64,000 nt of DNA, from assembly GCF_000374445.1 (NCBI RefSeq), contig NZ_KB894433.1, positions 1 through 64,000 of the forward strand. Reading direction: 5' to 3'. A program made the translations under genes and the position numbers. The notes below the pieces were generated by a model. It made no database searches. It worked only from the letters and a program-made list of their open reading frames with translations, and had not been told where the DNA came from. Origin of the DNA: Actinokineospora enzanensis DSM 44649 (GTDB lineage Bacteria > Actinomycetota > Actinomycetes > Mycobacteriales > Pseudonocardiaceae). Position 1 is the first letter of the stretch. Each line of letters begins with the position of its first letter. Shown piece by piece: positions 16,631-33,090 of this stretch.

Positions 16631-17506
16631 GTGGTGCCCATGAGCAGGCAGCCTCTCCGCTTGGCCATCCTGGAAGCCGAACGCGTCCTCACCGCCGCCG
16701 GTGTGGACTCACCCCGCGTCGACGCGGAGCTGTTGGCCGCGCACGTGCTCGGGGTGTCGCGGGGCAAGCTGCCGATGGTGCCGCTGGTGGACCCGCCGGT
16801 GGTCGACGCCATCGGCAAGCTGGTGACCCGCCGCGCGCGCCGGGAGCCGTTGCAGCACCTGATCGGGACGGCCGTCATGGGGGGCGTGACCGTGTCGGTC
16901 GGGCCGGGGGTGTTCGTGCCCCGGCCGGAGACCGAGCTGTTGTTCGCCTGGGGGCTGACGGCCCTGAATGGGGTTTCGAACCCTGTCGTGGTCGATCTGT
17001 GCACCGGTTCCGGCGCATTGGCCCTGGCGATCGCCAATGCGCGGCCGGACGCGGTCGTGCACGCGGTGGACTTCGATTCCTCGGCATTGGCATGGGCCCG
17101 GCGGAATGCCGATGCCTGCGCGGCGGCGGGGGATACGCCCATCCTGCTGCACTCGGCCGATGTGACCCGGCCGGATTTCGGGGTGGAGCTGGAAGCGCGG
17201 GTGGATTTGGTGGTCTGCAATCCGCCTTATGTGCCGGAAGGGACCGAGGTGCCACCGGAGGTGGCCGACCACGACCCGTTCCACGCCGTGTTCTCGGGCG
17301 CCGACGGCCTCGTCGTGATCCGCGCCGTCATCTCGGCCGCCGCTCGACTGCTTCGTCCCGGCGGCGCGGTGGCCATCGAACACGATGACACACATGGGGA
17401 ATCCGTCCCGGCCCTGCTCGCGGCGCGCCGGGTTCTGTCTACTGTGGAGGATCACGCCGACCTGGCCGGACGACCCAGGTTCGCCACCGCCCGACGCGCC
17501 GGATGA
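16631..17506 (+). CDS. prmC: Release factor glutamine N5-methyltransferase
   Basis: About 291 residues from GTG 16631, which immediately follows the prfA stop; ATG 16640 is an equally possible start. It methylates the GGQ glutamine of RF1/RF2 with S-adenosylmethionine. The SAM motif is VVDLCTGSGALALAIA, and the catalytic NPPY sits in LVVCNPPYVPEG. In mycobacteria the next gene is the Sua5 homologue; here nearly 3.9 kb of unrelated genes lie between them. Confidence 0.94.
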   Translation: MVPMSRQPLRLAILEAERVLTAAGVDSPRVDAELLAAHVLGVSRGKLPMVPLVDPPVVDAIGKLVTRRARREPLQHLIGTAVMGGVTVSVGPGVFVPRPETELLFAWGLTALNGVSNPVVVDLCTGSGALALAIANARPDAVVHAVDFDSSALAWARRNADACAAAGDTPILLHSADVTRPDFGVELEARVDLVVCNPPYVPEGTEVPPEVADHDPFHAVFSGADGLVVIRAVISAAARLLRPGGAVAIEHDDTHGESVPALLAARRVLSTVEDHADLAGRPRFATARRAG

Positions 17507-17523
17507 TCTGAACGATTGGGCGG

Positions 17524-18630
17524 TCATTCGATCAGTGTCGGGCTCCCCCATGTCAGCTCTGGAGTTCTCCCCCCTGTCTCCATGTGATCTCCGGGAGTCT
17601 CTGGGCTCCAGGCTATCAACTTCAGGTGGTGTACATCCGTTACATCGTGCCGGATCCAGACCGGCATGCCTGCTCGTACAATGTGCTTGACTTGCGGCGT
17701 GTTGTCCAGAAAAACCTGAAAGATGCCCGACTGGTCGCCGCTCGATGCGATATCATGGATTCCAATAACGGATTCGAACCTGCGATAGCTTCGGTTGAGT
17801 GCGTATTCGATATTTCCGGTCGGTGAGCTGGCGAAGAGACCGGGGCGACATGCGATGCTGTTCTTGTGGCGTAGCCCTCTGATGTCTGCGGTGGTGAATC
17901 GGATATCGTAGCTTTTGCGTACCGGCTCCAGTGACGCGGTCAAGGATCGAGTATGGGCCGGTGTGGCGTTGGAGTTGCCCATAAGAGCGGCGAGAATCTC
18001 TCCGATGCCTTTAGGTGTAATCCTGTCGATCTCATATATGGTATTTGAATGTGTCACGCAAAAGGCGGGAATCTCGCTTGGGCCGCTATTAGGTAGAATA
18101 ACGGACAGAATTCCTGGGGTTGCCGATGCCTGCTTGCTCTCGATGCTTTTTTGTAGCACGGCGGACTCGAATCTGCTGCTATGCAGCATGCCCGGTGGGC
18201 CGATTTTGCGCACCCGCTCGGTGTGCGCCGGTGATGCGATGAAAAGAACGAAGTCTGCCTGATTCATCTGTGTCACGGACCAAGTTTCCCAGTTTTGCCG
18301 CACTCCGGTTGCCCACTGGTCGAAGTGGACGGTAAGGTCCGTGTTGGCCTGCAGGATCTCGGCGAACTTGCTAACGTTCCCGAGGTGCTCGGCGGATTCA
18401 TGGGCGTAGCAAATGAACACCCTGAGAGGGTGCTCGGTCACTGCTTCAGGCAGGTGTCGATCATCGGAATTCGGTGTGGGCGGCGCTGGTTCCGACGAGG
18501 CTTGCGCTAACGTCAGTGCGTCTTTCTCCCATACAGTATCAACCGGCCAGTTGGCGACCGCGCTACGGAGCCTTTCGAGGGCGCTTGGCAATTTGTGCGG
18601 CTGTGGTTCATCGGCGTTCTTGCTGCTCAT
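17524..18630 (-). CDS. SEFIR-domain protein with C-terminal NPCBM-like domain
   Basis: 368 residues. Residues about 67-215 form a SEFIR (TIR-like) domain: LRVFICYAHESAEH, the VHFDQW strand end, and QMNQADFVLFIASPAHTERV are characteristic. Residues about 240-345 resemble the NPCBM/NEW2 carbohydrate-binding fold (SYRRFESVIGIHDIASSGDQ, IFQVFLDN, DVHHLKLIAW). There is no signal peptide or membrane helix, so the sugar-binding-like domain is probably intracellular. Bacterial SEFIR proteins are linked to signalling and conflict systems. It is the last gene of a three-gene minus-strand operon with the sigma factor; GAGAAGAG precedes its ATG. Confidence 0.75.
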   Translation of the reverse strand: MSSKNADEPQPHKLPSALERLRSAVANWPVDTVWEKDALTLAQASSEPAPPTPNSDDRHLPEAVTEHPLRVFICYAHESAEHLGNVSKFAEILQANTDLTVHFDQWATGVRQNWETWSVTQMNQADFVLFIASPAHTERVRKIGPPGMLHSSRFESAVLQKSIESKQASATPGILSVILPNSGPSEIPAFCVTHSNTIYEIDRITPKGIGEILAALMGNSNATPAHTRSLTASLEPVRKSYDIRFTTADIRGLRHKNSIACRPGLFASSPTGNIEYALNRSYRRFESVIGIHDIASSGDQSGIFQVFLDNTPQVKHIVRAGMPVWIRHDVTDVHHLKLIAWSPETPGDHMETGGRTPELTWGSPTLIE

Positions 18631-18665
18631 GCTCTTCTCTCCTTTCGTCGAGCAGACTGGGATAC

Positions 18666-19244
18666 CTACCGCCCGCTGTCCTCGAAGTATCTTTCCACCG
18701 CGCGTTGCGCTCGATTGATATAGGTTGATACGTGCTTGCTCTCGCAGTCGAGGATGTCGGCGATGTCAGATGGGGGCAGACCAAGGAAGTGCCGCATTAG
18801 GTAGGCTAGGCGATGTTTTTCGGGAAGGCTCGACAAGAAGCCGATAGCTTCGCTTAGCAGGGCCGCATTCTCGGGCGTGGTGCCGGGCGAGACCGCAGCC
18901 CTGTGTTGCGTCGCCAGATCATCGAATGATCCGCTGGGTATCATGCATGTTCTGGATCGCTTGCGGATCCGGTCCAGTGCGCTGTTCATTGCGATCTTTA
19001 CGAACCACGAGTCCGTCGATTCCGACTGTCGTATTCGGTCGATTGATTTGGCGGCCTTGATGAGCGAGTCCTGTAGGGCGTCTTGGGCGTCCTGTTGGGA
19101 TTCGAGCATGATGACTAGCGTCCCTAGAATCCTGCGCTTGTTTCGCTGGTACAGCCGCTCGACCCGATCCCAATCAGATGATGGGCACATGTTCGGATCG
19201 TCACACCCTGTCCTGTCGGGCGAACCTGACGCCCTTGGGTTCAC
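18666..19244 (-). CDS. ECF-like sigma-70 family factor
   Basis: 192 residues. Region 2 is recognisable (VERLYQRNKRRILGTLVIML, DAQDALQDSLIKAAKSI, STDSWFVKIAMNSALDRIRKR) and region 4 has the helix-turn-helix LPEKHRLAYLMRHFLGLPPSDIADIL. It should direct RNA polymerase to a small regulon. No canonical anti-sigma factor is adjacent; instead the gene overlaps the stop of an 80-residue protein upstream by ATGA and is followed 35 bp later by the SEFIR protein. Base composition is AT-richer than its neighbours. Confidence 0.83.
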   Translation of the reverse strand: MNPRASGSPDRTGCDDPNMCPSSDWDRVERLYQRNKRRILGTLVIMLESQQDAQDALQDSLIKAAKSIDRIRQSESTDSWFVKIAMNSALDRIRKRSRTCMIPSGSFDDLATQHRAAVSPGTTPENAALLSEAIGFLSSLPEKHRLAYLMRHFLGLPPSDIADILDCESKHVSTYINRAQRAVERYFEDSGR

Positions 19245-19483
19245 TCATGGCGTCCCTTCGCCTTGTGTGCGCCCTTGGCAACCTCTCTGATGGTCCTTGT
19301 TCCATCGAACTCGACCAGTCGGTGGCTTGGCGGCAGGGTGATCCACACGAGAATCCAGCCGACTTGTCGCACGACGTTCGTTGACACCTTGGCGATTCGT
19401 TGGCAGATGTGTGAAGGTTCGACTGGGATCATCGCACCAACGAAGGTGCTCCCTGCGATCGTCGCCAGGGCGGTCCACTCCAT
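19241..19483 (-). CDS. Small 80-residue protein, first gene of the sigma/SEFIR operon
   Basis: 80 residues from ATG 19483, preceded by GGGAGAGG at good spacing. The N-terminal half is hydrophobic (TALATIAGSTFVGAMIP) and a second apolar stretch (VVRQVGWILVWITLP) could be a membrane helix; the C-terminus is basic. No family is recognised. Its stop overlaps the sigma-factor ATG (ATGA), implying translational coupling, so it could be a partner or small anti-sigma-type regulator; that is only inference. Confidence 0.6.
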   Translation of the reverse strand: MEWTALATIAGSTFVGAMIPVEPSHICQRIAKVSTNVVRQVGWILVWITLPPSHRLVEFDGTRTIREVAKGAHKAKGRHE

Positions 19484-19608
19484 GTCGTCAGCCTCTCCCG
19501 AGTGTCGTCTGCAAGTAAGACGTTTCGGATGGGGCAGACACCACAGCGCGCCGAGAACCAGTTCTGCGGGCGATCGAACGTGGCTGACCGTAGGTGGCCA
19601 AGGGATGG

Positions 19609-20271
19609 CTACGGCGTGGCGTTGTCGATCATGGTCTGGTAGATGGTCTCGGTTTCCGGCCAGCTGTCCACGGTGGAGCTGGCGTAGACGAAATACTCGA
19701 CGCCGTCGATTCGCCAATACATCGAGTGGGCGTGCCGCCGTCCGGCCGGGGAGTCGTGTTCGAACTCCCAATCCAGTGCCTGCACCCCGTGGTACGTCGT
19801 CGTCCCCAGGCTCTGCCGGGTGAAGTTCGGGTGCGCGGACGCGTAGGTCCGCTCGTACTCCACGTGCGACTCCACCAGGCCCGCCGCGGGCATGGCGGCG
19901 CCGCCGTAGCGGACGTACCGGTTCGGGTCGGCCGGGTCGGTGGCCTGCATCGCGCCGGGGCCGGACGAGCGCTTCACGGTCCATCCCGCCGGGATCGTCG
20001 TGATGAGACCGCCGGGTCCGGCGACCCGCTGGTACCCCTCCGGGACCGCGGGCATGGCCACCCTGGACGGGTGCGGGCTGGTGCTCGGGGCGGACCCGAT
20101 GCTCGGCGCGGGCGGGTCCTCGTAGACGTAGGTGGGGGCCGGGCGGGCCTGCGGATCGGCTTCCTTGGGCGCCAGCAACAGCACCGTGCCGACCGCCGCG
20201 CTCACCGCGGCATAGGCGACGACCAGGGACGACGCCAGCCAGCGGGAGGTGAGCTGGCGCCGGGGGAACAC
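19609..20271 (-). CDS. Membrane-anchored protein of unknown function
   Basis: About 220 residues using GTG 20271; the frame stays open upstream to 20511, but the predicted promoter on this strand (20331-20359) argues for a start downstream of it. One N-terminal membrane helix (SLVVAYAAVSAAVGTVLLLA) is followed by a Pro-rich stretch and a globular exported domain with several Trp and Tyr residues (GYQRVAGPGGLITTIPAGW, HAHSMYWRIDGVEYFVYASS). The pattern resembles the exported sensor-like domains found beside serine/threonine kinases in actinomycetes, but no family can be named with confidence. Confidence 0.6.
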   Translation of the reverse strand: MFPRRQLTSRWLASSLVVAYAAVSAAVGTVLLLAPKEADPQARPAPTYVYEDPPAPSIGSAPSTSPHPSRVAMPAVPEGYQRVAGPGGLITTIPAGWTVKRSSGPGAMQATDPADPNRYVRYGGAAMPAAGLVESHVEYERTYASAHPNFTRQSLGTTTYHGVQALDWEFEHDSPAGRRHAHSMYWRIDGVEYFVYASSTVDSWPETETIYQTMIDNATP

Positions 20272-32096: not shown

Positions 32097-32606
32097 TCAT
32101 CCCCTCGTCAGGTCGGGCGCGGCCAGCAGGCCGCGCAGGCGCTCCACGCCGCGGGCGGTCTGGCTCTTGACGGTGCCGGTCGAGATACCCAGCGCCGCGG
32201 CCGTGTCGGCCTCGGACAGGTCGTCGAAGAAGCGCAGGACCAGCACCGCGCGCATCCGCGCGGGCAGCGTGCCCAGCGCCCTGGTCACCTCGTCCCGGTC
32301 GACCACACCGCCCTCGTGGCCGCCGACGCCCGGCTCGGCCACCGCGTCCATCGGCGTCTCGGTCACCCGGCGGGACCGGGTACGCCACCGGTTGGCCGAG
32401 GCGTTGGCCAGGGCCGACCGGACATACGGCTCCAGGTCGCCGCGCACCCGCCCGCGCCGGGCGTACACGCGTTCCAGCACGTCCTGGAGCAGGTCCTCGG
32501 CCGCGGCCCGGTCGCCCGCGCAGAGCAGGTACGCGGTACGCAGCAGCGCCGTGGACCGGTGCGCCACGAAGTCGGCGAACTCGCTGTCGGGATCGATCGC
32601 GCTCAC
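32097..32606 (-). CDS. SigE-family RNA polymerase sigma factor (ECF type)
   Basis: 169 residues from GTG 32606, preceded by CAGGGGG; the longer open frame upstream overlaps the atpC promoter and is not credible. Region 2: FADFVAHRSTALLRTAYLLCAGDRAAAEDLLQDVLERVY; region 4: LPARMRAVLVLRFFDDLSEADTAAALGISTGTVKSQ. This is the short SigE-family ECF factor abundant in actinomycetes. Upstream, GGGAAC and GTC spaced 16 bp on the same strand (about 32640 to 32615) could be an autoregulatory promoter. Confidence 0.86.
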   Translation of the reverse strand: MSAIDPDSEFADFVAHRSTALLRTAYLLCAGDRAAAEDLLQDVLERVYARRGRVRGDLEPYVRSALANASANRWRTRSRRVTETPMDAVAEPGVGGHEGGVVDRDEVTRALGTLPARMRAVLVLRFFDDLSEADTAAALGISTGTVKSQTARGVERLRGLLAAPDLTRG

Positions 32607-32687
32607 CCCCTGTGTCCGACTCGGTGTCGGTCGGTCGTTCCCCCGGACTGACACCGGCCTGGCTGGGGAGGTTGTCAGTGCTCCGAT

Positions 32688-32693
32688 TAGACT
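32688..32693 (+). promoter_or_regulatory. Candidate -10 element for atpC
   Basis: TAGACT at 32688-32693 would give a leader of about 25 nt before the atpC GTG. A separate promoter is required because of the terminator behind atpD. No clear -35 box. Confidence 0.4.
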
Positions 32694-32724
32694 GGCGGGG
32701 AACCGCGAGACTTGAGGAGATACC

Positions 32725-33090
32725 GTGGCTGAGATGTCGGTCCAGCTGGTCGCCGTGGAACGACGCCTGTGGTCGGGCACCGGCAGCTTCGTCGTCGCGC
32801 AGACCACCGAGGGCGAGATCGGCATCCTGCCCGGTCATGAGCCGGTGCTCGGCCAGTTGGTCGAGGGCGGTGTGGTGAAGATTCGCACCACCGACGGCGA
32901 GACGGTCACCGCCGCGGTCTTCGGCGGCTTCCTCTCGGTCACCGCCGACGCGGTGAGCATCCTGGCCGAGTCGGCCGAGCTGTCCACCGAGATCGACGTG
33001 GCGCAGGCCCGCTCGGACCTGCAGCACGCCGACACCGAGGAGCGCACGCGGGCCGCGGCCCGGCTCCGGGCGGTCGGGCAGACGGCCTGA
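32725..33090 (+). CDS. atpC: F1Fo ATP synthase subunit epsilon
   Basis: 121 residues, GTG start with TTGAGGAGAT upstream. The N-terminal beta-sandwich is recognisable ([39 protein letters not shown]) and a short C-terminal helical part follows. It belongs to the rotor with gamma. It is displaced about 2.1 kb from atpD by the inserted sigma pair, yet its downstream DUF2550 neighbour is the usual one. Confidence 0.93.

Follow-up and report, generated by a model that had tools for sequence, protein, structure and literature searches.

A low-GC cassette with an ECF-type sigma factor gene and a SEFIR-NPCBM gene beside prmC in Actinokineospora enzanensis

Results

Three tightly spaced open reading frames beside prmC

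The window, that is the whole stretch of 64,000 nucleotides analysed from Actinokineospora enzanensis DSM 44649, carries three tightly spaced open reading frames, all on the minus strand, for an 80-residue product, an ECF-type sigma factor and a protein with a SEFIR and an NPCBM domain (Table 1). The first-pass annotation had described three coupled genes at this place, and the open reading frames bear it out: the first two overlap, and the sigma factor gene is followed after a gap of 35 bases, with a strong ribosome-binding site inside it, by the SEFIR-NPCBM gene. We infer that the three are co-transcribed. A promoter search of the stretch that covered sigma-70-type promoters, ECF promoters being outside its scope, gave no match.

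Table 1. Coordinates of the cassette, its parts and its flanks in the window
Feature	Position	Strand	Remarks
SEFIR-NPCBM gene	17524..18630	-	368 aa; PF08357, PF13676 and PF08305 over cut-offs
NPCBM (CBM51-like) domain, about residues 222-367	17530..17967	-	PF08305; Foldseek 2vmg
SEFIR domain, about residues 70-217	17980..18423	-	Glu155 kept; Pfam, model, alignment
N-terminal tail, residues 1-69	18424..18630	-	Alignment with 16 relatives; mostly low model confidence
AAAGGAG, likely ribosome-binding site for the SEFIR-NPCBM gene	18639..18645	-	Read from sequence
ECF-type sigma factor gene	18666..19244	-	192 aa, GTG start; PF04542, PF08281
80-codon open reading frame	19241..19483	-	80 aa product; 4-base overlap with sigma start
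Foreign insert	17507..19608		GC drop; flanks are prmC (16631-17506, +) and the 220 aa gene (19609-20271, -)

The cassette is AT-richer than its surroundings, as had been noted. GC content is 0.56-0.59 across positions 17500-19499 (500-base windows) in a chromosome background of about 70%; the immediately adjoining 500-base windows are at 0.70 and 0.67, and two windows on each side span 0.67-0.74. Elsewhere between 10 and 28 kb the values are 0.67-0.80, with the exception of 24.0-25.0 kb at 0.61-0.63. Codon-position GC is alike in the three cassette open reading frames (0.71, 0.69 and 0.65 at third positions) and differs from that of four host genes, whose third-position values are 0.85 for prmC, 0.94 for the 220 aa gene, 0.94 for the TPR-like gene and 0.98 for sua5. 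Because low GC and similar codon-position GC are common to all three open reading frames, they probably derive from a lower-GC source and were probably acquired jointly. Repeats flanking the insert amount to weak imperfect pairs at most. As vehicles, a plasmid was rejected, with one distant match to the SEFIR part and seven weak ECF matches among plasmids, as was a phage, with no match to the SEFIR-NPCBM protein among phages.

prmC is present in all 16 genomes of the genus. Twelve of the 16 prmC stretches were compared, 11 of them long enough, with genes in the relatives called by our own script. The order in all 11 Actinokineospora relatives is prmC, a convergent gene of the 220 aa type, a TPR-like gene and sua5, with extra genes and partial second copies between prmC and sua5 in L200. 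The 220 aa gene is conserved in the genus without a Pfam match, and is termed lipoprotein-like here. Its junction with prmC measures 81 bases in L198, 142 bases in L202 and 217 bases in L204, whereas the two genes overlap slightly in L201 and L205. In L203 the junction holds 0.5 kb with one small predicted open reading frame, and in L206 it extends over 1.1 kb in which no gene is predicted. Four of the 11 genomes (L197, L199, L200 and L207) carry other cargo at this place, an open reading frame of 556-588 aa with a small second one; the stretch L197:5500-7625 and the like places of the other three are alternative contents of the prmC site. The large cargo open reading frames of L197 and L207 have no Pfam match, and the small one of L197 is DUF5955. 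Given that its contents differ across the genus, the prmC junction is an insertion site with variable contents, of which the window cassette is one example. The first-pass annotation had also taken the interrupted prmC-sua5 linkage to indicate transfer. This we reject, as two genes lie between prmC and sua5 in 11/11 relatives and non-adjacency is normal in the genus. The foreign part is just the segment between prmC and the lipoprotein-like gene, at about 17507-19608. Horizontal acquisition as such is upheld by the low GC, the codon-position GC and the variable insertion site.

The 80-codon open reading frame and the sigma factor

The 80-codon open reading frame has no Pfam match and no relative in the 296 other genomes of the family, being present in one of 297, its own. 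When the bases of the stretch were shuffled 2000 times, 100 of the shuffled versions contained an ATG open reading frame of at least this length, but the codon-position GC of the actual frame (0.59/0.49/0.71) resembles that of both cassette neighbours. It presumably makes a protein. The product had been called hydrophobic, which holds in a mild form (GRAVY 0.05, best 19-residue mean 1.42, pI 10). A clear membrane helix is lacking, and a role as membrane anchor is unsupported.

The sigma factor matches Sigma70_r2 (PF04542) with 50 bits against a cut-off of 24, Sigma70_r4_2 (PF08281) with 33.6 against 25.7 and TIGR02937 with 68.5 against 42.9. It has regions 2 and 4 only and is therefore of the ECF type. 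Neither of the two other cassette open reading frames contains an anti-sigma domain recognised by Pfam or TIGR-type models, in line with the earlier description of an ECF sigma factor without a classical anti-sigma gene; the 80 aa product may be an unrecognised anti-sigma factor. In searches that scored the top 8 to 22 candidates of each genome, three relatives of the sigma factor lie under E 1e-20 in the 297 family genomes, all at about 35% identity, and none besides itself in 394 class genomes. The gene downstream of these relatives is a non-SEFIR gene in two cases and lies beyond the contig end in the third. A second ECF-type sigma gene of the window (32097-32825, minus strand) belongs to another lineage.

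A predicted cytosolic protein with SEFIR and CBM51-like folds

Both domains assigned to the 368 aa protein score over their Pfam cut-offs, SEFIR (PF08357) with 49.6 bits against 23 and NPCBM (PF08305) with 29.1 against 23.9 at residues 265-340; TIR_2 (PF13676) is over its cut-off as well. No 19-residue stretch has a mean hydropathy above 1.8, hence no membrane helix is predicted and the protein is predicted to be cytosolic. An AlphaFold2 model built from a 39-row alignment (the window protein and 38 of the 42 full-length loci described below) has a mean pLDDT of 78.7 and a pTM of 0.56, with residues 27-64 below a pLDDT of 50. Foldseek places the C-terminal part on the CBM51 structure 2vmg (E 8.7e-9, probability 1.00) and the SEFIR part on 9ot1 chain E (1.6e-4) and 5y8e (7.4e-4), so that the predicted structure agrees with the domain assignment. 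The family profile in turn matches the prokaryotic SEFIR structures 5y8f (1.2e-12) and 5y8e (1.5e-12), and in this profile search Glu155 of the family aligns onto a Glu of 5y8e/5y8f. Glu155 is invariant in 39/39 rows together with Asp104, Trp106, Arg111, Trp117 and Ser133-Pro134, and by analogy with TIR enzymes it is a putative catalytic residue.

The N-terminal tail is missing from the 16 aligned relatives, one of which has a short tail. Residues 1-67 have no credible relative in 100 genomes; five weak matches besides its own (E 0.003-0.01) occur there in unrelated-looking settings, and the tail was rejected as a common module. The PADLOC bSEFIR profile PDLC03957 matches the protein with 47.1 bits over profile positions 36-111 of 412. 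bSEFIR proteins are reportedly anti-phage proteins, as Millman et al. are said to have found in 2022; the SEFIR domain is common to them and the window protein, the rest of which is NPCBM.

The window protein differs from the other 38 rows at 24 of the 75 columns in which their conservation reaches at least 90%, and departs at 6 of the 29 columns that are invariant in them; the changed columns include four residues just before Glu155. Because of these changes and a long branch in the tree (below), the protein could be decaying or retargeted. That three intact open reading frames persist with ordered codon-position GC, that 51 of the 75 conserved and 23 of the 29 invariant columns are kept, Glu155 included, and that the predicted model retains both folds, speaks against a remnant of a once-working SEFIR-NPCBM gene that is diverging without function. 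The branch and the altered columns are what one would expect of such a remnant, and we regard it as quite improbable.

SEFIR-NPCBM genes of the family and their neighbourhoods

A match to the SEFIR-NPCBM protein or a part of it is found in 32 of 150 related genomes, including 15 of the 16 of the genus (G011 has none). Genome contigs were also scanned with an alignment of 17 rows; the best 80 matches correspond to 78 loci, 42 of them with a full-length SEFIR-NPCBM gene. Eleven of these 42 stand alone; the other 31 (L070-L095, L097, L100, L102, L106 and L113) face an operon, complete or in part, for a TIR protein, a KGGVGR ATPase, a protein of about 208 aa and one of about 1020 aa. L083 has the last two operon members only, and L084 lacks one and L113 two, on short stretches. 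The operon members were annotated on one representative, L033: the TIR protein is over the cut-offs of PF13676 and PF01582 and below that of the FxsC model, the KGGVGR ATPase matches NF047398 with 144 bits against a cut-off of 90, the protein of about 208 aa has no match, and the large protein is over the cut-offs for HerA/DUF87 and AAA_22. A second set of 20 stretches, from which four with the NPCBM part only were left out, contains 16 with a full-length SEFIR-NPCBM gene, all 16 with the operon or part of it as judged from position and first residues. Nine of the 16 duplicate loci of the 78-locus scan. Without counting the window, there are thus 49 distinct loci: 38 operon-linked, among them a second copy in the window's own genome (L041:8689-15781, G000 contig C4), and 11 stand-alone. 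The five-gene neighbourhood of SEFIR-NPCBM gene, TIR gene, KGGVGR ATPase gene, gene of about 208 aa and HerA-like gene looks like an undescribed conflict system.

In a 44-row tree, a branch (100/98) sets the 32 operon-linked genes apart from the rest. The window gene falls among the stand-alone genes (98/91) with a branch length of 1.66; its exact place is unsure because of this long branch and its unusual composition. The window protein is thus of the same family as the operon-linked proteins, to which it is 27-36% identical, but belongs to another clade than these, and their operon includes no sigma factor gene. Two SEFIR-NPCBM genes, in L060 and L064, adjoin kinase-PASTA-NPCBM or DUF1707-NPCBM genes. 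The former (L060:9033-10772, Amycolatopsis) encodes a protein kinase, PASTA and NPCBM parts beside a stand-alone SEFIR-NPCBM gene, and L061 and L109 have a similar neighbour.

At none of the 49 other distinct SEFIR-NPCBM loci does an iterated ECF profile find a sigma gene that adjoins the SEFIR-NPCBM gene in the same direction, and the same-direction pairing is seen in this one genome only. The first-pass annotation presented the three genes as a system; its observation is sound, but a conserved three-gene system is unsupported, as the SEFIR-NPCBM homologues occur without the sigma gene and the 80-codon open reading frame in a single genome. Given 49 loci without a co-directional sigma gene, the sigma factor may be a chance neighbour. 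The sigma factor gene and the SEFIR-NPCBM gene may then be unrelated genes at one insertion site, the sigma factor serving elsewhere and the SEFIR-NPCBM protein working alone; we consider this possible, though doubtful. The grouping of the window gene with the 11 stand-alone genes fits it, as does a prmC site that, judging from the different cargo in 4 of 11 Actinokineospora genomes, collects genes, whereas the common direction, the 35-base gap with its strong ribosome-binding site, the upstream start-stop overlap and a composition that matches across all three open reading frames argue against it.

Sigma factor genes at SEFIR or NPCBM genes elsewhere

A different ECF gene is convergent to the SEFIR-NPCBM gene at three of the 49 loci (L043, L070 and L088), and in L111 and L113 an ECF gene touches a SEFIR-only gene. 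These five are mutually 50-82% identical and form one lineage, which we take to be SigD-like. Compared with the window sigma factor by blastp, L088 alone of the five matches, at 24% identity. The SigD-like protein of L113 is matched in 44 of 249 genomes. Among the matches listed, 8 of 30 SigD-like loci have a SEFIR gene within 1.5 kb, a SEFIR-NPCBM gene in L167-L170 and a SEFIR gene in L179, L184, L187 and L193; the other 22 have none. Adding L070, L088 and L113 and merging duplicates (L043 is L169, L111 is L193) brings to 11 the number of genomes in which a SigD-like gene and a SEFIR or SEFIR-NPCBM gene are convergent. All 11 genes fall on one side of a branch (93/87), from which the SEFIR link perhaps arose once in this lineage. 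Each of the eight genomes with a SEFIR-linked SigD-like gene that were searched whole has a second SigD-like match elsewhere. Over the 78 loci, a SEFIR gene is the touching neighbour of 4 of 8 sigma-like matches against 153 of 932 other genes, events that are not independent; it is suggestive that sigma-like genes adjoin SEFIR genes above the rate of other genes. The sigma-like matches of L095, L099, L100 and L120 lie away from SEFIR genes.

NPCBM domains are matched in 86 of 325 class genomes, and 20 of the places listed were examined for sigma domains. Three of them (L239-L241), from one Streptomyces-like genus, encode an ECF sigma factor with a C-terminal NPCBM in a single chain; in the predicted genes of the other 17 the ECF profile finds no sigma domain. 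A hydrophobic stretch near residues 325-355 in the three proteins, and zf-HC2 just over its cut-off in L241 only, suggest that the ECF and NPCBM parts are separated by an anti-sigma segment and a membrane helix. An ECF protein of Streptomyces venezuelae with r2, r4 and NPCBM is likewise entered in a table of PMC11256431. An ECF sigma factor and an NPCBM domain can thus be linked, there across a membrane within one chain. The window shares with L239-L241 the link of ECF sigma factor to NPCBM, but theirs is one polypeptide with a predicted membrane helix and without SEFIR, and their sigma parts are not closely related to the cassette sigma factor (best blastp E 0.005).

Such proteins, that table entry, the SigD-like genes convergent to SEFIR genes in 11 genomes, the extra N-terminal tail of the window protein and a sigma gene beside which no anti-sigma domain is recognised would all suit a switch from receptor to transcription. 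Here ligand-bound SEFIR-NPCBM protein would free or activate the sigma factor; its SEFIR domain would serve for docking rather than catalysis, and the protein as a whole would stand in for the missing anti-sigma factor. Yet the kept Glu155 points to an enzyme, the relatives do without a sigma partner, the NPCBM of the Streptomyces-like proteins is predicted beyond the membrane helix whereas the window protein is predicted to be cytosolic, and the SigD-like genes, being convergent and of a different ECF lineage, are no operon partners. We think such a switch unlikely. A direct link from receptor to sigma factor, drawn from one genome, is possible. Its boldest form is a long shot: a cytosolic lectin-SEFIR receptor that directly controls an ECF sigma factor, in a bacterial parallel to signalling by the IL-17 receptor. 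SEFIR loci would then have recruited ECF sigma factors at least twice, once in the window lineage and once in the SigD-like lineage (Amycolatopsis and kin).

Discussion

SEFIR belongs with TIR to the STIR clan (PMC13142454), and according to a review the NAD level of infected cells is lowered by SEFIR proteins (PMC11084316). NPCBM domains fused to TIR and to kinases were proposed in 2021 to be intracellular invader sensors of multicellular actinobacteria (Kaur 2021, PMC8195603). The statement that no system of such composition has been described therefore holds in part: the pairing with a sigma factor was not found in the papers searched, but an NPCBM-TIR sensor had been described. The cassette resembles those systems in the intracellular fusion of NPCBM to an effector of the TIR superfamily in actinobacteria, and a kinase-NPCBM gene adjoins one relative of the window protein (L060). 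It is unlike them in that AP-ATPase-TPR and caspase are missing from the locus and an ECF sigma factor is there instead, its neighbours outside the three open reading frames being prmC and the 220 aa gene. The same paper reports ECF sigma genes beside EACC2-caspase systems, with a proposed transcriptional output. An ECF sigma factor would partner a suicide-type module in both; the EACC2 systems use caspase and TPR proteins, the window cassette a SEFIR-NPCBM protein. The word SEFIR is absent from the available text of Kaur 2021 (PMC8195603), and that of Kaur 2020 (PMC7159879) contains none of sigma, ECF, SEFIR and NPCBM. No paper on SEFIR together with NPCBM was found, a weak negative given that most subscription papers were outside the search, and in a search of the same reach none on KGGVGR.

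We favour, with a probability of slightly under one half, the reading that the cassette is a horizontally acquired SEFIR-NPCBM sensor-effector suicide module whose ECF sigma factor drives its own operon. It would be a conflict module, probably directed against phages. In its favour are the two domains with their predicted folds and the kept Glu155, the TIR, KGGVGR ATPase, HerA-like or NPCBM-fusion genes beside the relatives, the NAD effect reported for SEFIR proteins, the sensor role proposed by Kaur 2021, the composition common to the three open reading frames and the variable insertion site; the lack of a co-directional sigma gene at the 49 other loci and the divergence of the window protein count against it. 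The CBM51-like NPCBM domain would bind a ligand related to infection, be it a glycan, a glycosylated component or a nucleotide sugar, upon which the SEFIR domains would assemble. Once assembled, SEFIR would damage the cell. Cleavage of NAD through Glu155 is the most likely means, and the cell would stop growing or die. The ECF sigma factor would most likely raise the expression of its own operon, so that the module could be kept low and induced under stress; in this capacity it would control the module instead of acting as the sensor's output.

If the sigma factor serves the module, the cassette would be an example of suicide-type immunity controlled by a dedicated sigma factor, and it would allow the idea that bacterial SEFIR proteins have a transcriptional output to be tested. 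The recurrent five-gene neighbourhood of the SEFIR-NPCBM family deserves study more than the single cassette of the window.
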